64,000 nt of DNA from Asterias amurensis (lineage: Eukaryota > Echinodermata > Asteroidea > Forcipulatida > Asteriidae), in the NCBI RefSeq assembly GCF_032118995.1, contig NC_092663.1, forward strand, positions 9,176,001 through 9,240,000, in the 5' to 3' direction. A program made the translations under genes and the position numbers. The notes under the pieces were generated by a model that was given only the letters and a program-made list of their open reading frames with translations, had not been told where the DNA came from and ran no database searches. Each line of letters begins with the position of its first letter. The stretch's first letter is position 1. Shown one piece after another: positions 2,030 to 46,300 of this stretch.

Positions 2030-4501
2030 GCGGCCCCCCCTCCCCCTTTACCACAAACCCAGACGTACCTATAATCCCAGACCCCAACATGCTTCAAACA
2101 AATTACTAGCTAGGTAGGACGCCCAAGCATCCCTTCCCCCTTTACCACAAACCCAGACGTACCTATAATCCCAGACCTCAGCATGCTACAAACAAATTAC
2201 TAGCTAGGTAGGACACCCAAGCACCCCTACCCCTTTACCACAAACCCAGACGTACCTATAATCCAAGACCCCCAGCATGCTACCAACAAATTACTAGCTA
2301 GGTAGGACGCCCAAGCATCCCTTCCCCTTTACCACAAACCCAGACGTACCTATAATCCAAGACCCCAGCATGCCACAAACAAATTACTAGCTAGGTAGGA
2401 CACCCAAGCATCCCTTCCCCTTTACCACAAACCCAGACGTACCTATAATCCAAGACCCCAGCATGCCACAAACAAATTACTAGCTAGGTAGGACGCCCAA
2501 GCATCCCTTCCCCCTTTACCACAAACCCAGACGTACCTATAATCCAAGACCCCAGCATGCCACAAACAAATTACTAGCTAGGTAGGACGCCCAAGCATCC
2601 CTTCCCCCTCTACCACAAACCCAGACGTACCTATAATCCCAGACCCCAGCATGCTTCAAACAAATTACTAGCTAGGTAGGACGCCCAAGCATCCCTCCCT
2701 TTACCACAAACCCAGACGTACCTATAATCCAAGACCCCCAGCATGCTACCAACAAATTACTAGCTAGGTAGGACGCCCAAGCATCCCTTCCCCTTTACCA
2801 CAAACCCAGACATACCTATAATCCAAGACCCCAGCATGCCACAAACAAATTACTAGCTAGGTAGGACGCCCAAGCATCCCTTCCCCCTCTACCACAAACC
2901 CAGACGTACCTATAATCCCAGACCCCAGCATGCTTCAAACAAATTACTAGCTAGGTAGGATGCCCAAGCATCCCTACCCCTTTACCACAAACCCAGACGT
3001 ACCTATAATCCCAGACCCCAGCATGCCACAAACAAATTACTAGCTAGGTAGGATGCCCAAGCATCCCTACCCCTTTACCACAAACACAGACGTACCTATA
3101 ATCCCAGACCCCAGCATGCTACAAACAAATTACTAGCTAGGTAGGACGCCCAAGCATCCCTTCCCCCTCTACCACAAACCCAGACGTACCTATAATCCCA
3201 GACCCCAGCATGCTTCAAACAAATTACTAGCTAGGTAGGACGCCCAAGCATCCCTTCCCCCTCTACCACAAACCCAGACGTACCTATAATCCCAGACCCC
3301 AGCATGCTTCAAACAAATTACTAGCTAGGTAGGATGCCCAAGCATCCCTACCCCTTTACCACAAACACAGACGTACCTATAATCCCAGACCCCAGCATGC
3401 CACAAACAAATTACTAGCTAGGTAGGACGCCCAAGCATCCCTTCCCCCTCTACCACAAACCCAGACATACCTATAATCCCAGACCCCAGCATGCTACAAA
3501 CAAATTACTAGCTAGGTAGGATGCCCAAGCATCCCTTCCCCCTCTACCACAAACCCAGACGTACCTATAATCCCAGACCCCAGCATGCCACAAACAAATT
3601 ACTAGCTAGGTAGGACACCCAAACACCCCTACCCCTTTACCACAAACCCAGACGTACCTATAATCCCAGACCCCAGCATGCTACAAACAAACAACTAGCT
3701 AGGTAGGATGCCCAAGCATCCCTTCCCCCTTTACCACAAACCCAGACGTACCTATAATCCCAGACCTCAGCATGCTACAAACAAATGACTAGCTAGGTAG
3801 GATGCCCAAGCATCCCTACCCCTTTACCACAAACACAGACGTACCTATAATCCCAGACCCCAGCATGCCACAAACAAATTACTAGCTAGGTAGGACGCCC
3901 AAGCATCCCTTCCCCCTTTACCACAAACCCAGACGTACCTATAATCCCAGACCCCAGCATGCTTCAAACAAATTACTAGCTAGGTAGGACGCCCAAGCAT
4001 CCCTTCCCCCTTTACCACAAACCCAGACGTACCTATAATCCCAGACCCCAGCATGCTACAAACAAACAACTAGCTAGGTAGGATGCCCAAGCATCCCTTC
4101 CCCCTTTACCACAAACCCAGACGTACCTATAATCCCAGACCCCAGCATGCTTCAAACAAATTACTAGCTAGGTAGGACGCCCAAGCATCCCTTCCCCCTT
4201 TACCACAAACCCAGACGTACCTATAATCCCAGACCCCAGCATGCTACAAACAAACAACTAGCTAGGTAGGATGCCCAAGCATCCCTTCCCCCTCTACCAC
4301 AAACCCAGACGTACCTATAATCCCAGACCCCAGCATGCTTCAAACAAATTACTAGCTAGGTAGGATGCCCAAGCATCCCTTCCCCCTTTACCACAAACCC
4401 AGACGTACCTATAATCCAAGACCCCAGCATGCTATCAACAAACTACTAGCTAGGTAGGATGCCCAAGAATCCCTACCCCTTTACCACAAACCCAGACGTA
4501 C
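2030..4501. repeat. Minisatellite of about 94 bp, about 27 units, starting at the SLC38A11-like exon 2 splice donor
   Basis: The motif AGACGTACCTATAATCC recurs every 93-95 bp from about 2061 to 4494, giving roughly 27 copies. Read in the gene's direction, each unit contains ATTATAG followed by GTACGTCTGG, identical to the exon 2 donor. Upstream of that is a diverged copy of the exon end: by eye 21 of 28 bases match between a typical unit and the real exon. The unit next to the exon matches in its intronic part too. The array therefore seems to have grown from the exon-intron junction into the intron. It contains no credible gene. Confidence 0.93.
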
Positions 4502-4649
4502 CTATAATTCCGGATCCAAGAATGCTATTAGCGATATTGAAGCTAGCTCCGGGGATGCCACTGCGATCTTGATCTTTGGAATCATCAAGGGCTGCCTCTG
4601 CCCCTTTCTCAACCAGCTGTGCTGTGTCATGAGTCGCCATCGGCATCAT
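4502..4649 (-). CDS. SLC38A11: SLC38A11-like exon 2 (start of TM1, ends inside the GSGIIG motif)
   Basis: This exon is 49 codons plus one base. The splice donor splits the glycine codon after GSGII, in the region that is unwound in TM1 of this fold. The last ~28 exon bases and the donor are the first unit of the tandem array that fills the following intron. Confidence 0.8.
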
Positions 4650-7600
4650 CTGAAAATCATCAAATAAAAACAAAACCTCAATGAATGTAGACAAATCCTG
4701 ATACTTCACGTAGCCAACAGAGGGGATAGCCCCTATGCCCCCAGGGGCCAATTTCATAGCGCTGCTAAGCACAAAAATTTGCTCAGCATGAAATTTTTGC
4801 CTCGATAAAAACAAAATTACCAACCAAATTTCCACATGTTTTGAGGATTTAAACAAACAACAGTTGAATACAAGTAACAAGCAATATATGCAAAAAATGG
4901 AAATATGGTTGGTAACCCTGTTTTTATCAAGGAAGATATTTCATGCTAATTTCATGAAATTGGACCCTGGTCTTGCCTTGGTGCCCTTGAAATGCTCAAG
5001 TAGAAATTTACAATTTCCTTATGCCTTGGTGCCCTTGCCCTTTCAAAAACGAAGCAAACAGGGATGTGTAGTCAGCCTAATAGATTGGGTGAAATACTCT
5101 AAAAAGTAACAACCACAAACAACTTAATGTATCTGGTAATGGTAAGAAGCACTGCAGCAGTTGATAGTATAAACTTTTTACGAATAACAATTTTACAAAG
5201 ATTTTAAAAGACACACCAAAAAGAACTCCAAAGGAAACAAAATAGGTTTTTCATAAAAAAAACTAAAAATGCAAATTATTCATTTCAACTTGAAATATGC
5301 CCCTTTATATGCTAACCCTAGGGTTGGCTCACTAACAACTAACAATGTAACTCTACTCTCAAGCACGGGTAGCTTTTCCAAGAAAATAGCTGTTCCCGGG
5401 ATATGGCTATTCCCAGGAATTGGCAATTCTCCAGGAGTTTGCCAGGGTTAAAGACAGTGGACACTATTGGCATGATTGGTAATTGTCAAAGACCAGTCTT
5501 CTCACTTGGTGTATCTCAACATATGCATAAAATAACAACCCTGTGAAAATTTGAGCTCAATTAGTCATCGAACTTGCGAGATAAAAATGAAAGAAAAAAC
5601 ACCCTTGTTGTCACATGAAGTTGTGTGCGTTTAGATGCTTGATTTCGAGACCTCAAATTCTAAATCTGAGGTCTCAAAATCAAATTCATGGAAAATTACT
5701 TCTTTCTCGAAAACTACATTACTTCAGAGGGAGCCGTTTCTCACAATGTTTTATACCATCAACCTCTCCCTATTACTCATTACCAAGTAAAGTTTGATGT
5801 TAATAATTATTTTGAGTAATTACCAATAGTGTCCACTGCCTTTAATAACTCAGGTGTGAAAGGGGTTCAGTCAATGCCTGAGTGCCCCTTGAAACATTCC
5901 AGTGGGAATTGCACCCTTTCCCACAGAAACAAATTTCTTCCCCTTATGAGAAACCATGAATCTGGCAGTGTGCTCCACTTAAAAACTGTCATTATTTAGC
6001 TTAGAAACCATCACTTACATGAACTCTATGAAATAATAGGTTAAATTTATTACGGAATTGCCTTTGTAATTTCCTTTGTAATTTTAACCCACACGGTAAC
6101 ACCTGTCAGGTATAAAAACGGTTATAATGTATTTATAAATTATACATTACAGCTAAGAAAACAAGCAGTAAACACGAACTCTATTTAATAATAGGTTAAA
6201 TTTCTGATGGAATTTTCTTTTTAATTTTAACCCACACTGTAACAAACTAACACCTGCTAGGTATAAAAAGGACTCTAATGTATTTATACATAAATACCAT
6301 TAAAGCTTAGAAAACAATCAGTAACATGAACTCTATGAAATAATAGGTTAAATTTCGGACAGAATTTTCTTGGTAATTTTATCCCACACTGTAACAAACT
6401 AACACCTGCTAGGTATAAAAAGGACTCTAATGTATTTATACATAAATACCATTAAAGCGTAGAAAACAATCAGTAACATGAACTCTATGAAATAATAGGT
6501 TAAATTTCGGACAGAATTTTCTTGGTAATTTTATCCCACACTGTAACAAACTAACACCTGCTAGGTATAATAAGGGCTCTAATGTGTTTATACATATTAC
6601 AGACAAAAAAACAATCAATTCAATTGTTTTATTGTCACACATTACATACAGTGAAATTCACTCCAGCTTGCGAGTCTAAAAATATTAAAAAATTACAAAA
6701 AATACAGAAAATCAGTAACATGAACTCTATGAAATAATAGGTTAAATATCTGACAGAATTTTCTTTGTAATTTCCTTTGTAATTCTAACCCACACTGTAA
6801 CACCTGCCAGGTATAAAAGGGCTATAATGTGTTTACAAATACATAAATACATTACAGCCTAGAAAACAATCAATTCAATTGTTTTATTGTCACACATAAA
6901 GTGAAATTCACTCCAGTCTAAAAATATTAAAAATTACAAAAAATTACAGAAAATCAGTAACATGAACTCTTTGAAATAATAGGTTAAATTTCTGACAGAA
7001 TTTTCTTTGTAACACCTTCCAGCAGATGCTCTAAACCTCACCATCCTTTTTCAATTTTAATGGATCACCCTATGAATAACTAGCCATTGTACAACGGCGA
7101 GAGTTATTAAAATCTTGTGGACAGCATCTGACCGCAAACCCGTCACACAATATCAGCCCATATGGTGTATACATGTCTAATACACCACCAATCAATATGA
7201 TAATTTGATTTTCATTCCGCAGCGGATCAAGCAGCATGGACTGATGAAGGTGGGGAGGCTGGGGGACAACGCTGGCATGCAAGGACCGTCTTCACTCCCT
7301 GTTCAGGAGAATTTCCTCCCACGTAGCTTTACGATAATAAGAAATAGACACACAGAATATCAGACGGTGGATGATGCTACATTATGCACCGGTAACTAGA
7401 AACATATGAAGATGTTCACCAGCGTGTTGACTGAAACGACAAATCACCAGGCCTGATACCTCATGGAGACAACAAAGGCAATTGCCCACATGTCATTGCC
7501 TTGGTGCCCCTTTCCCATACTTTAAAGACACTGGACACTATTGGTAATTGTCAAAGACCAGTCTTTACACTTGCTGTATCGCAACATATGCATAAAATAA

Positions 7601-28800: not shown

Positions 28801-31800
28801 ATGTTGAGATACACCAACTGTGAAGGCTAGTCTTTGACAATTACCAATAGTGTCCAGTGCCTTTAAGGGCAAACCCAGCAAGTGAGCATCTCTGAAAATG
28901 CCACATTACATCTTTGAGAGGGCAAGGCCACTTTTTTTTGCAATGGCCACTTACATGAACATTTGACAATCTCAAAAGTCTATGGGAAACATCTGGAGGG
29001 GCATCAAGGCAAAGACAATGGGCAACATTGCCTTCATGGCCTCTGTACAGTAATACCAGGCGAGACATCATTTTCATGTTTTGAAGAAGCCGTCTCATAA
29101 TTTTTTACTGTTTACTGGACCTGGTATTGAGTCCCAACCGAGTGATTTGCTTTTTGTCACAGAACTCAGGAAAGTTTTGAGTAATAGTGTTTAATATCGA
29201 TGCAAATGGTAAAAACTAAATTACACTCAAATAGACCTTTATCAAGCTGTAACTATCTTGGTGTTCCTTGTTTCCATGAGTTTGAATGGAGTAAAATCAA
29301 GATGGCCACACCGTGATAAAGATCTATAGACCTTTATCATGCTGCCTCCATCTTGGTCACGTTCCTCGTATCAAATAATAGCAGTGAACGCTAATAATCA
29401 TTGTGCAAATAGGAACCATACTTTGTTTTTTCCCTCTACCCTCGTTTTGATAACAATGATATCAATGGGAAAAAGTCAAGATGGCTGCACCATGATAAAG
29501 GTCTATTACCTCTGATGCAAAGATTAGTATAAATCGTCTCATCTGTGTTTGTGTGTGTGTGTTTTTTGTTTTCACTAGCTGTGACTACGACCAATACTGC
29601 TGTGGATCGTTATGCTGCGCTAACTATGACGGGGGATACTACAGCTATGGCTTCTGGAACATCTGGTATTTCTGGTAAGAACGTGACTCGTGACATTAAT
29701 GAAATAATTATATTAGCCCACGGGTGAGAGACTTCCAAGGGTCCAAAAAGCAGGGCATTAACTATTTATTGATATGCTAAACCTATCTTTCTGAAAGTTT
29801 GTAATACTCAGCGCCTTGAGTACCTTGTTTGGTAGATACGTGCGCTATATAAAACTTCAAATATTATTAAGCACTTTCGTTTTTTTAAAACTTGAATATC
29901 ATCTGCTGCACTGAGTTATGGTCCGTTGATGTGTTAACCATAGAAATAGAACCCAAAGAACGCCGAGTGTGTCATTGTTTGTGCGGTGTCATTGTAAGAC
30001 CATTTTTATGGACGCGCGTATGCCATTTTTTTTACGCCTGTAAATTTGCCATACAATAGACGTCCCATTGACCAATGAAAACAGTTAAAACGGTCTATGT
30101 GCGATTCCATTTTGCCATACATGCGGTCACGTGATGCCCAGGTTGCCATACACGCGTGTCGCGCAATGACCATTTTGTCATACACGCGTATCGGTACGCG
30201 GTATATATACGGTCATATACGGTATGCGGTATATATACGGTCATATACGGTATCGGTACGCCGAGTCCACAGACAACACAGAGGGCAGCCGAGCTCAGCG
30301 TTTTCCGGGTTCTAATTTCTATGGTGTTCACCCCTAAGAGTCCATAGTGACCACAAGCTGTTGAATACACAAAGCGATCAAAGTAGGTCGTGTCCAGATA
30401 TGAAGTTGACCCATCTTCCCTATGTTAACAAGTAAAAACAATTCCAAAAGTTATCACAACCAAACTTTCTGTTTCATATTATTTTCAGTACTCTAGTTAT
30501 TTTTCTCCGTTCAACCCCAAAAAACATTTAAACTTTACCCAGTCAATTTCCCTTGCGGGAAATTTTTTTTTTACTTATAATAATCAAACCATATCAGCGG
30601 TATTTTGGTGTTAAATGAATGATCACTAAAGGGGTACTGCGCCAATTGTTGATGGGCGTCAACTGTGACGGCAGGGAGGGCACTTAATCCCTCGTTCAAA
30701 TCTCAATCAAAGAAGCTCGTTTAATTTTACGATTTTTAATATTTTTTTCCCACCCCAACAGGTTCATCGTTTTCTTCATCTTGATGACATGCTGTGGAGG
30801 GTGTGGTTTCTACCGTCGCCGCCAGGCATACATGAACGGCAACCGCAGCACCATCATTGCCGGACCAGGCACCATTATTCCACCCCCACGAGGGGGCACT
30901 GTACCCACGGGGGCTTACCCCGCTCAGCCGATCTCAACTGGCCCTCAGAGTTACTACCAAGGTCCTCCTACATATGATGAGGTGAAGATCTTTTTTGTTG
31001 TGTTTTCTTCCTTTTAAGTTGTCATGTCTTCCCTGATTAGTCAGGTTTTTTCTTGATTTAAATTTATTCAACCCTGTGGCTTAAGATTTTCTGGAGAGAG
31101 ATGAACCCCCACAAAAAAAAAAACCAACCTCAAAACACAGCAACAAAAAACAAAAACAATATTTTGTATTATCCCGATGCAAAACTTACATCTGTAAAAT
31201 CATTGCTAACACCTAGGATTCCATTTGCCTCTAGCCACCGGGCTAGTTCGAAGGTTTAGTGGTAAGACATCGGCTCTAGAAATGCAAAGGTTGTGGGTGG
31301 AATGATATTGAATTGATCAGATAGTACATGTAGGAGGATTGACTGTGCACTGTGCACTGTGCACTGTGGATCCACGTTATTGCAAGTTGGCATAGGTTAT
31401 CCATCATTCCAATCACAGTGGATGAGATTGATTGGTCAGACAGTAGGAGGGTTGACTGTGCACTGTGTAGATGCACCCACCTTATTGCAAGCTGGCATAG
31501 GTTATCCATCATTCCAATCACAGTGGATGAGGTTGATTGGTCAGACAGTAGGAGGGTTGACTGTGCACTGTGTAGATGCACCCACCTTATTGCAAGCTGG
31601 CATAGGTTATCCATCATTCCAATCACAGTGGATGAGGTTGATTGGTCAGACAGTAGGAGGGTTGACTGTGCACTGTGTAGATGCATCCACCATATCGTAT
31701 TACAGGCTGGCAAAGGTTATCCATCATTCCAATTACAGTGGATGAGAATTAATGGTCAGACAGTGAGAGGGTTAATTCTGCATTCTACAGAAGATGATCT

Positions 31801-40457: not shown

Positions 40458-40640
40458 TCCGGGGTCGATTTCACAAAGGTAGTCCTAACTTAGGACTAGT
40501 CCTAAGCAATGCTAAGAGATAGGGACTGGTCCTAAGTTAGGACCAGTAACTCATCCCAACTCAGGACTGATCCTATCTCTTAGCATTGCCTATGACTAGT
40601 CCTAAGTTAGGACTACCTTTGTGAAATCCACCCCTGGAAA
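40458..40640. mobile_element. Foldback E family, copy
   Basis: GGGGTCGATTTCACAAAGG to CCTTTGTGAAATCCACCCC; arms rich in CCTAACTTAGGACTAGTCC. Confidence 0.88.
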
Positions 40641-40685
40641 CAAAGAACAGATAAACCTTATCAATAGATTTGTACCTGTCGAAGA

Positions 40686-40838
40686 CCAGGGGTGGATTTC
40701 ACAAGGAGTTAGGACTAGTCTTATATCGAGTTAGGACCGGTTACTCGTCCTAACTTAGGACTATCCATGCAATTTGTATATCTCCTAGGACTAGTCCTAA
40801 GTTAGGACTAGTCCTAACTCTTTATGAAATCGACCCAG
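40686..40838. mobile_element. Foldback E family, copy
   Basis: CAGGGGTGGATTTCACAAGG to CTTTATGAAATCGACCC, 45 bp from the previous copy. Confidence 0.87.
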
Positions 40839-42119: not shown

Positions 42120-42619
42120 TTAAAGACACTGGGGTGGATTTCACAAAGGTAGTCCTAACTTAGGACTAGTCCTAAGCAATGCTAAGAGATAGGACTGGTC
42201 CTAAGTTAGGACCAGTTAGGACTACCTTTGTGAAATCCACCCCTGGACACTATTAGTAATTGTCAAAGACTAGTCTTCACAGTTGGTGTGTCTCAAAATA
42301 TGCATAACATAACAAACCTGTGAAAATTTGAGCTCTATCGGTCATCGAAGTTGTGAGATAATAATGAAAGAAAAATAACCCTTGTCACATGAAGTTCTGT
42401 GCATTTAGATGGTTGATTTTGAGACCTAAAGTACTAAATCGGATGTCTCGAAATCAAATTCGTGGAAAATAACTTCTTTCTCGAAAACTATGGCACTTCA
42501 GAGGGAGCCGTTTCTCACCATGTTTTATACCATCAACCTCTCCCCATTACTCGTCACCAAGAAAAGTTTTATGCCAATAATTATTTTGAGTAATTACCAA
42601 AAGTGTCCATTGCCTTTAA
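42120..42619 (-). mobile_element. MITE-A copy interrupted by a foldback element
   Basis: TTAA-AGACACTGG is followed at 42131-42245 by a CCAC/GTGG foldback, and the MITE resumes with ACACTATTAGTAATTG. It ends GTGTCCATTGCCTTTAA. The foldback is therefore the younger insertion. Confidence 0.88.
42131..42245. mobile_element. Foldback E copy nested in a MITE-A
   Basis: GGGGTGGATTTCACAAAGG to CCTTTGTGAAATCCACCCC inside the left end of the MITE at 42120. Confidence 0.9.
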
Positions 42620-43350: not shown

Positions 43351-43371
43351 CTACTGTAGCACCAGGCCGAT
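43351..43371 (-). CDS. NMT: NMT exon 13: 21-base terminal coding exon with the catalytic C-terminus
   Basis: The acceptor GTTTCTCAATAG is followed by codons for IGLVLQ and a TAG stop. In NMTs the chain's own terminal carboxylate acts as the catalytic base, so this tiny exon is functionally essential. Exon 12 ends in phase 0 and matches it exactly, as in vertebrate VGLVLQ. Confidence 0.88.
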   Translation of the reverse strand: MGLVLQ

Positions 43372-46300
43372 CTATTGAGAAACGAAACAGAATTGTAAAG
43401 CATCATATGACTTTGATCAGGGCCCGTTTTCATGGCTCTGCTTTCTGCCAAATTCTGCGCTTACTAGGCTCACCATTTTCCACTTGCAGGGCAAGAGCCA
43501 AATTTCTCGTGGAGTATGCACGCGCAGAAGCCAAAGTCAGCTGCTGACCTGTGAAATATGCTTGACGTAAGAGCGGAATTACCTGCTTCCGCAAGTGCCG
43601 ATTCTTTGCTAACGATAAGTAGAGCCATGAAATTGGGCCTTGTAGGATGCCCTCATACAAATATGAAAAATAAAATAAATGAACAGGCAGTGTACAGGTG
43701 GTCTATTTGCGATGCAGGTTCCTACTCCACGGAAGTAGAAATATATTGCAAGACAAATTCTCAATTCACCTTAACTTTTAGAGTACTTAGATGAATACAA
43801 AAAAACAAACAGACCAGACACTGGGGGATGGGGGTGGGGAATGGGTGTTTTTGGAGATGGGAGGGTGGGGGGGGGGGCATCCTACCTGATGTGGTTCCAT
43901 GGTTTTGCATCTCCAGTTGTACAGGTAGTATTGCAGGTTACCGTTACTGGTAAACAGACCAGACACTGGGGGATGGGGGTGGGGACTGGGTTCTTTAGGG
44001 GGTGTGAGAGGGGGGGGCATCCTACCTGCTGTGGTTCCATGGTTTTGCATCTCCAGTTGTACAGGTAGAATGGCAGGTTACCGTCAACGATAAACAGACC
44101 AGACACTGGGGGGATGGGGGTGGGGAATGGGGGTGGGGACTGGGTTCTTTAGGGAGTGGGAGAGGGGGGCATCCTACCTGCTGTGGTTTCATGGTTTTGC
44201 ATCTCCAGTTGTACAGGTAGTATTGCAGGTTACTGTTACCGGTAAACAGACCAGACACTGGGGGGATGGGGGTGGGGACTGGGTTCTTTAGGGGGTGGGA
44301 GGGGGGGGCATCCTACCTGCTGTGGTTTCATGGTTTTGCATCTCCAGTTGTACAGGTAGTATTGCAGGTTACTGTTACCGGTAAACAGACCAGACGCTGG
44401 GGGGATGGGGGTGGGGACTGGGTTCTTTAGGGGGTGGGAGAGGGGGGGGGGCATCTTACCTGCTGTGGTTCCATTGTTTTGCATCTCCAGTTGTACAGGT
44501 AGTATTGCAGGTTACCGTTACTGGTAAACAGACCAGACACTGGGGGGTGGGGGTGGGGACTGGGTTCTTTAGGGAGTGGGAGAGGGGGGCATCCTACCTG
44601 CTGTGGTTTCATGGTTTTGCATCTCCAGTTGTACAGGTAGTATTGCAGGTTACTGTTACCAGTAAACAGACCAGACACTGGGGGGATGGGGGTGGGGACT
44701 GGGTTCTTTAGGGGGTGGGAGGTGGGGGGGGGCATCTTACCTGCTGTGGTTCCATTGTTTTGTATCTCCAGTTGTACAGGTAGTATTGCAGGTTACCGTT
44801 ACTGGTAAACAGACCAGACACTGGGGGATGGGGGTGGGGACTGGGTTCTTTAGGGGGTGGGAGAGGGGGGGGGGGCATCCTACCTGATGTGGTTCCATGG
44901 TTTTGCATCTCCAGTTGTACAGGTAGTATTGCAGGTTACCGTCACCGATACCGAACTTGAGCTTCTCCAGGAATGACTTGTTCTCCATCAGGTCCAGAGC
45001 GTTGAACACATCAAAGTCATCCTGAATCACACACACAAAAATCAGTCAATATTCAATAAATCCAATTAATATCATCAATAAGCGATCAATATATTGTTCA
45101 TTATAACCATGTAATTTACAATAAATGTATATGTGATTTAGATCATTAGTATTAATCAATGTAATCATTTTAATCAATTCAGGAAATCAAATTAAATCAA
45201 TCAATCAATTAAATTCACTAATCCATGTTAATCAAATTCCTAGATTAATCTATTAAATTTGACCAACGAATGACAACAAATCAATAAATCTTCCAATACA
45301 TCCACCAATAGCTAATCATGTTATACAAATTCAAAGATCAATGTAATCAATCTGATCAATACCATCAATAAATCTTGTCAAGATAATCAATAAATGGAGT
45401 CAAATCATTCAAGTCCTCAATCCGAAATTATAACGTTTTCAAAATAACTGATAATTTATATCAATCGATTCATCCTTTGTTCAATCACATAAATAAAGTC
45501 AATGTGATCATAATTAATCATCAATCATTTCATCGATCAGATAAATAAAAGCAGCTTTAAGATCAATCAATCATAGCACTGAAAACAGTTTAAAAAAGAA
45601 TCAATCAATCAATCAATCAATCAATCACTCAATCAAACAATCAATCAAATACTCATTAAACCATCAAGTTATGCAATATATAAACCAATCAATCAATTAA
45701 TCCACACAGAATGTAATAATCATTCATTCTTTCAAACTGATATTTATTTCCATACTTCACGAAAACAGAGTACAAACAATGTTTTTAAGGAATAACCAAT
45801 AAACAAAGCTATTTAATGAGGGTAAGAAAAAAAGTAAATAGAGTATGGAGGCATCATCTGGAAGCCGAGGCTTATGTGGGGAATATCTTTCCTATCCTTT
45901 CGGTCAATTTGACTACAAACACAACTCTATTAAATTGACCCCAGTTTAGGGTACAAAACATTTACTGTGCACAATAATACAGTCCAGCGGAACCACCTAG
46001 TGGTTTAATCAATTTGCGGGTGTGAGCCCAAGGGTACATTCTTTTGCGCTTAGAGCAGCCCAACTTGCGATTAACTAAACAGTGCTGCAGTTTTTAGAGC
46101 TATTAGAGCTCAGCAAACATTAATGATCATGTCATTGATTCAAAATACAGTGTAAGCATGCAGCAACAAGACATTGTGATCTTGTAGAGAGTTTTTCTTG
46201 AGATTTTAGCCCCATAATACATAAATCTTGGTTCATACTTCCTATGCATGCTAATGAGATACAATTTGTAACAATTGATTCCCAACAGTTGAACTGTGTT

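Follow-up and report, generated by a model that had tools for sequence, protein, structure and literature searches.

Do splice donors that have been multiplied within an intron alter the way a gene is spliced, or does such an array do little? The question is raised by the N-myristoyltransferase (NMT) gene of the sea star Asterias amurensis, in which the edge of exon 12, its CAG/GT donor (the slash marks the exon edge) and the start of the next intron recur seven times downstream in the last intron of the gene, on the - strand. All positions below are those of the window, that is, the whole stretch of 64,000 nucleotides that was analyzed. Our main conclusion is that the array is a real tandem repeat that most likely does little: it is probably an intronic minisatellite that arose when a segment spanning an exon edge was duplicated in tandem, with donors that go largely unused and a presence that is nearly neutral.

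The gene that carries the array

By its coding sequence, the gene carrying the array is that for NMT, on the - strand, and the identification first made in an earlier note on this DNA is borne out by Pfam domain matches and by a tblastn exon alignment. Both the NMT and the NMT_C domains are present together with an LVLQ end, and at E 0.001 or better the genome yields five exons that match PF01233 or PF02799, all of them in this gene, the only one for NMT that was found there. Exons were placed by tblastn with a human NMT1 sequence as guide. Among the matches listed, the best-scoring homologues were P0001, 91% identical, and the NMT of Acanthaster planci (P0002), 84% identical.

The LVLQ end, coded in the short last exon (Table 1), is invariant in 16 of the 16 homologues aligned, which were chosen from 120 listed. 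In human NMT1, catalysis relies on the C-terminal carboxylate of Gln496 as its base; the enzyme shortened by two end residues keeps its kcat and binds peptide more poorly, and activity is barely detectable once three are removed (PMC7048800). The view that the last exon is essential is thus upheld, in that IGLVLQ is coded there and its end matters in the human enzyme as described in that work (PMC7048800).

Structure of the array

The array consists of eight units, the real exon edge (U1) and the copies U2 to U8, each of which begins with GGTAAC or AGTAAC. They stand head to tail, as in a minisatellite, at spacings of 138-152 bp, although the definition given in one paper limits minisatellites to 15-100 bp per unit (PMC3618361) and the unit of the NMT array is longer. 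Every unit has a donor that matches the consensus (8/8 CAG/GTARGA, the first being the real exon edge), with GTAAGA in two units and GTAGGA in the other six. Except at position +4, the first 14 intron bases are common to all eight donors. In all seven copies, a C-rich tract ends in CCCCAG and an 80-nt segment lies between this motif and CAG/GT, and the mini-introns between units measure 58-72 nt. The earlier note had described seven copies of the edge and donor in units of about 140 bp, at least two of them with GTAAGA (near 44456 and 44738), and the C-rich tract with a cassette-like segment of 80 nt; each of these descriptions is confirmed, the two GTAAGA donors lying at 44459 and 44740. Directly before U7, at the U6/U7 junction, TATCGTTGAC resembles the exon's TATCGGTGAC, so that the part of the exon that was copied probably measures about 67 nt and reaches some 10 nt deeper into the exon than the ~57 nt first described.

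Table 1. Features of the NMT locus. Positions refer to the window; on the - strand, a unit starts at its higher coordinate. Mismatches are alignment counts against U1 over the 57 exon-end bases; spacing is to the next unit.
Feature	Position	Strand	Donor GT	Donor motif	Pseudo-exon	Mismatches	Spacing (bp)	Basis or remark
NMT exon 12	44884..45021	-						138 nt, 46 codons, phase 0 end with CAG; tblastn guide, translation, length
NMT last intron	43372..44883	-						1512 nt, holds the array; sequence reading
NMT last coding exon	43351..43371	-						IGLVLQ and stop, acceptor CTCAATAG; sequence reading
U1	44798..44940	-	44883 (real)	CAG/GTAGGA			143	Real exon edge and intron start
U2	44655..44797	-	44740	CAG/GTAAGA	44741-44820	3	143	First copy
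U3	44517..44654	-	44597	CAG/GTAGGA	44598-44677	3	138	Copy
U4	44374..44516	-	44459	CAG/GTAAGA	44460-44539	2	143	Copy
U5	44235..44373	-	44316	CAG/GTAGGA	44317-44396	3	139	Copy
U6	44083..44234	-	44177	CAG/GTAGGA	44178-44257	3	152	Copy; downstream junction nearest to exon source
U7	43943..44082	-	44025	CAG/GTAGGA	44026-44105	3	140	Copy
U8	43807..43942	-	43885	CAG/GTAGGA	43886-43965	0		Last copy; exon part as in U1 (57/57); native intron beyond
G-rich strand of array	43823..44875	+						Regular-expression count of G-quadruplex motifs

Tandem Repeats Finder gave the array scores of 1386 and 1433, at periods of 143 and 281 bp, and a search of the whole genome (491,506,623 bases in 23 contigs) with one unit returned at least eight matches, all of them in the array, a count that is a lower bound for repeats. 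A tandem repeat of this kind is therefore not due to chance. The possibility that the copied unit is a dispersed element was rejected, as none of these matches lies outside the array. The count of G-quadruplex motifs placed 14 of the 15 found on the + strand of the window inside the array.

Strength of donors and acceptors

Donor scores were computed with weights for human sites. On these weights the real exon 12 donor scores 8.43; five decoys equal it and two (44740 and 44459) reach 10.99, in line with the suggestion that some decoys are the better donors. Since two decoys outscore the real donor, leakage to decoy donors is plausible. On the same weights, seven other NMT donors score 8.67-11.45, above the real exon 12 donor; those of the two NMT exons nearest the 5' end fall below its score and were not placed. 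Of the 581 GT sites in the span of the NMT gene, 20 reach 8.43 or more, namely eight NMT donors (the real one included), the seven decoys and five others, where sites were assigned to exons by the tblastn exon ends and scored with the human weights. Because five other GT sites reach 8.43, a strong GT site away from any exon end is nothing unusual in this gene.

The acceptors are another matter. Over the 22 bases before AG, those of the seven copies contain 73-77% C and 5-14% T, compared with 45-73% T in the four NMT acceptors examined; of these four, the shares for exons 10 and 11 are approximate, as the positions of their acceptors are some bases off. Judged by base composition, the decoy acceptors are weaker than those of NMT. 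The suggestion of usable signals on both sides of each copy is not supported, given T-poor acceptors and mini-introns of only 58-72 nt.

Predicted products of misuse

Pseudo-exons were translated in silico as single copies and as series in order from U2. Inclusion of one 80-nt pseudo-exon would shift the frame, since 80 is not divisible by three; the translations agree with the earlier note that this happens before the last exon. With U2, U4, U7 or U8 included singly, the frame stays open past the last junction, whereas U3, U5 or U6 ends it 14 nt short of that junction. Including at least two pseudo-exons, taken in order from U2, places the stop 58 nt or more upstream of the junction. Use of donor U2 alone is predicted to read through the last junction, and use of donors U3 to U8 to meet a stop at least 139 nt before it. 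A stop codon lying more than about 50 nt upstream of the last junction is consequently predicted for donors U3-U8 and for two or more copies in order from U2, but not for the U2 donor or for single copies, whose products would escape decay because they have no such stop. Much of the misuse of array donors, not all, would thus be open to mRNA decay. Every translated product of misuse replaces the normal end of NMT.

A single protein search for a cassette-bearing C-terminus, made with the new end only, yielded 17 candidates, but no match with an E value of 1 or better; only one named sea star figures among the 120 homologues listed. This empty search is weak evidence against cassette isoforms and does not decide which donors are used.

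It is conceivable that these products serve regulation, decoy donors or poison pseudo-exons lowering NMT by unproductive splicing, perhaps according to tissue or copy number. Two decoys that outscore the real donor and five that equal it on the human weights would suit such a role, as would the early stops brought by donors U3-U8 or by at least two pseudo-exons from U2, and the length of the human MIR137HG VNTR is reported to correlate with splicing (PMC6692358). We nevertheless regard regulated unproductive splicing as unlikely, for the decoy acceptors are C-rich and T-poor with introns of 58-72 nt, the one protein search described above gave no cassette isoform, and neither donor U2 nor a single pseudo-exon falls under the 50-nt rule. 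We give still less credence to a copy-number rheostat, in which each added donor or pseudo-exon would divert a share of NMT pre-mRNA; if true, the amount of an essential lipid-transfer enzyme would be tuned by the length of the array, and this length should differ among sea stars in the wild.

Origin and expansion of the array

The units fall into a pattern. CATCAG is found in the two end units (U1 and U8) and CAGCAG in the six inner ones, U2 and U4 have ACA and GTAAGA in common, and AGT and AAA are common to U3, U5 and U6; U3 and U6 do not differ at any of the 129 ungapped sites compared. This distribution, with the period of 281 bp that spans two units, fits one duplication followed by growth from inside, partly by two units at once. 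The end units may be ancestral, as the MEPHQ of Acanthaster suggests, although the nearest homologue, P0001, reads MEPEQ. We propose that the array started with the tandem duplication of a ~143-bp segment across the 3' edge of NMT exon 12, made up of ~67 exon nt, the donor, the C-rich intron start and CCCCAGTGTCTGGTCTGTTT, and that it would then have expanded from inside to eight units. The G-rich strand, with its G-quadruplex motifs, probably helped the expansion of the array.

Minisatellites are common in the A. amurensis genome. Tandem arrays with a period of at least 50 and at least 2.5 copies numbered nine in a 200-kb sample of the genome, one of them a satellite filling its 10-kb piece, and four in the 64-kb window. 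As a rough estimate extrapolated from nine per 200 kb, there would be ~22,000 arrays in 491.5 Mb. The genome paper reports 16,531 genes with 10.07 exons per gene (PMC10625585), from which an exon edge would be met, again roughly, every ~1.6 kb; a 140-bp duplication would hence touch one in about 1 case in 12, if unselected against.

Other repeats were also seen. The window holds a tandem array of a 94-bp unit at 2037-4527 (26.6 copies; periods of 187 and 281 bp are also detected) and minisatellites at 6097-6596 (152 bp x 3.3) and 31349-31773 (105 bp x 4.0). One 10-kb sample piece, from contig C1, is all 325-bp satellite (30.9 copies, 96% matches). Adjoining the NMT array in the same intron, a dispersed repeat at 43412-43510 has at least 40 scored matches across the genome, of 420 first candidates, one being the window itself and the other 39 being 78-86% identical. 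At 40465-40830 and 42135-42250, palindromic repeats on AGTCCTAACTTAGGACTAGTCCTAA were noticed by eye and are perhaps small inverted-repeat elements.

A duplication that crosses an exon edge and copies its splice signals is what is looked for in intron gain, and the event is of the same kind as the edge duplication described in potato RdRp, where a new intron is spliced (PMC4974935). That the copies are on their way to becoming spliced exons by tandem duplication, an intron or exon birth in progress, is none the less improbable, given a segment of 80 nt, which is not a multiple of three, and acceptors poor in T.

Even less probable is that the animal has fewer copies and that the array is in part an artefact of assembly. 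Reading through a tandem repeat with C runs is difficult, and the identity of U3 and U6 at 129 sites could be taken in this sense, but most units differ from one another: pairwise differences among the eight range from 0 to 9.3% at ungapped sites of the unit proper, which we define as the alignment minus the 9 bases where U8 has left the repeat. Moreover, the assembly is described as made from HiFi reads (mean 12.5 kb, 22.7-fold), about 10x the array length (PMC10625585), and an error over the ~1.1-kb array is unlikely for this reason. Errors may persist in the exact length of the C runs.

Constraint on the copies

Seven sites vary in the exon part of the copies, six by nonsynonymous and one by synonymous change, where 30 of the 171 possible changes in the exon part would be synonymous, a ratio such as would be seen if constraint were absent. 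Four of the six nonsynonymous changes fall at G352, Q355, Y356 and C363, which are invariant in the 16 aligned homologues (from 120 listed). The mean pairwise difference in the exon part, compared with the rest, is 0.047 versus 0.056 for U1-U8, 0.049 versus 0.036 for U1-U7 and 0.039 versus 0.032 for U2-U6. We accordingly rejected the idea that the decoys are under selection for what they encode, 6 of the 7 changes being nonsynonymous and the exon part no less variable: no constraint at the protein level is apparent in the copies.

Two apparent hints of constraint were set aside. A difference of 0.047 in the exon part versus 0.087 in the rest disappears once the 9 columns where U8 no longer follows the repeat are dropped. 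As for U8, its exon part is the same as that of U1, which has P = 0.018 if the seven differences of this unit are placed at random over it; constraint was rejected here because all the differences are packed into 24 nt (P = 8e-5) and the non-coding bases beyond are identical too. For the same two reasons, the pattern of U8 looks like patchy conversion and not selection.

That included copies provide functional isoforms of NMT with another C-terminus is barely credible: donor U2 and the single inclusion of U2, U4, U7 or U8 do keep the frame open through the last junction, but the reading frame of the copies shows no constraint, LVLQ is invariant in the 16 aligned homologues, human NMT1 is described as using the C-terminal Gln496 carboxylate for catalysis and as nearly inactive after loss of three residues (PMC7048800), and the one protein search for a single-cassette product had no match at E 1 or better.

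Why the array would do little

Under the reading that we prefer, that of a nearly neutral minisatellite, the spliceosome would pair the acceptor of exon 12 with the nearest donor, 138 nt away, and the decoy donors would mostly be ignored because the exon is defined with its first donor. As pseudo-exons, the decoys would be largely silent because of their C-rich, T-poor acceptors and very short introns. If donors U3-U8, or at least two pseudo-exons, were used now and then, an early stop and decay of the mRNA would follow, and this would make the array nearly neutral. Its effect would then be an intron longer by ~1 kb, with seven donors that stay mostly idle. The earlier note had left a choice between suppression of these sites and the making of C-terminally altered forms, a choice that omits the simplest case, ordinary exon definition with the first donor.

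The locus offers a natural experiment on donor choice, with eight donors that follow a nearly identical 57 bases and of which two are better by consensus. Exclusive use of the first donor would mean that exon definition and position count for more than donor strength. Use of other donors as well would link enzyme dose to genotype through a repeat of variable length. The case also shows that a coding edge can seed an intronic minisatellite.

Comparison with known systems

A literature search for Asterias with N-myristoyltransferase gave no match, and none of the titles listed in further literature searches dealt with the NMT intron array. The human minisatellite CEB1 is G-rich and prone to form G-quadruplexes, and the NMT array resembles it in the many quadruplex motifs of its G-rich strand. 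That a minisatellite may supply several donors is already known from human IFI6, a close precedent; Turri, Cuin and Porter reportedly described this minisatellite, with its multiple splice donor sites, in 1995. The IFI6 unit is short, at 12 bp, whereas that of NMT is ~143 bp and includes 57-67 coding bases and an acceptor-like CCCCAG. In IFI6 (6-16, G1P3), two downstream repeat units are reported to act as donors and to give rise to three mRNA species (PMC4526556). The likeness is that a minisatellite gives one transcript several splice donors, those in the copies of the NMT array being candidates.

In potato RdRp, as reported, an intron-exon edge was duplicated and a new intron is spliced (PMC4974935). 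There too, a tandem duplication over an intron-exon boundary copied splice signals, but what was copied, once, is a 3' splice site with the start of an exon, whereas in NMT it is the end of an exon with its donor, in seven extra copies (PMC4974935). Human MIR137HG is alike in that a GC-rich VNTR lies beside alternative 5' splice sites and its length correlates with their use; these sites are described as lying in pre-miR-137 sequence, outside the repeat, whereas the NMT donors are inside the units (PMC6692358). What is new in NMT relative to IFI6 and potato is the much longer unit, the presence in each copy of coding bases and an acceptor-like end, and the location of the array in a housekeeping gene.
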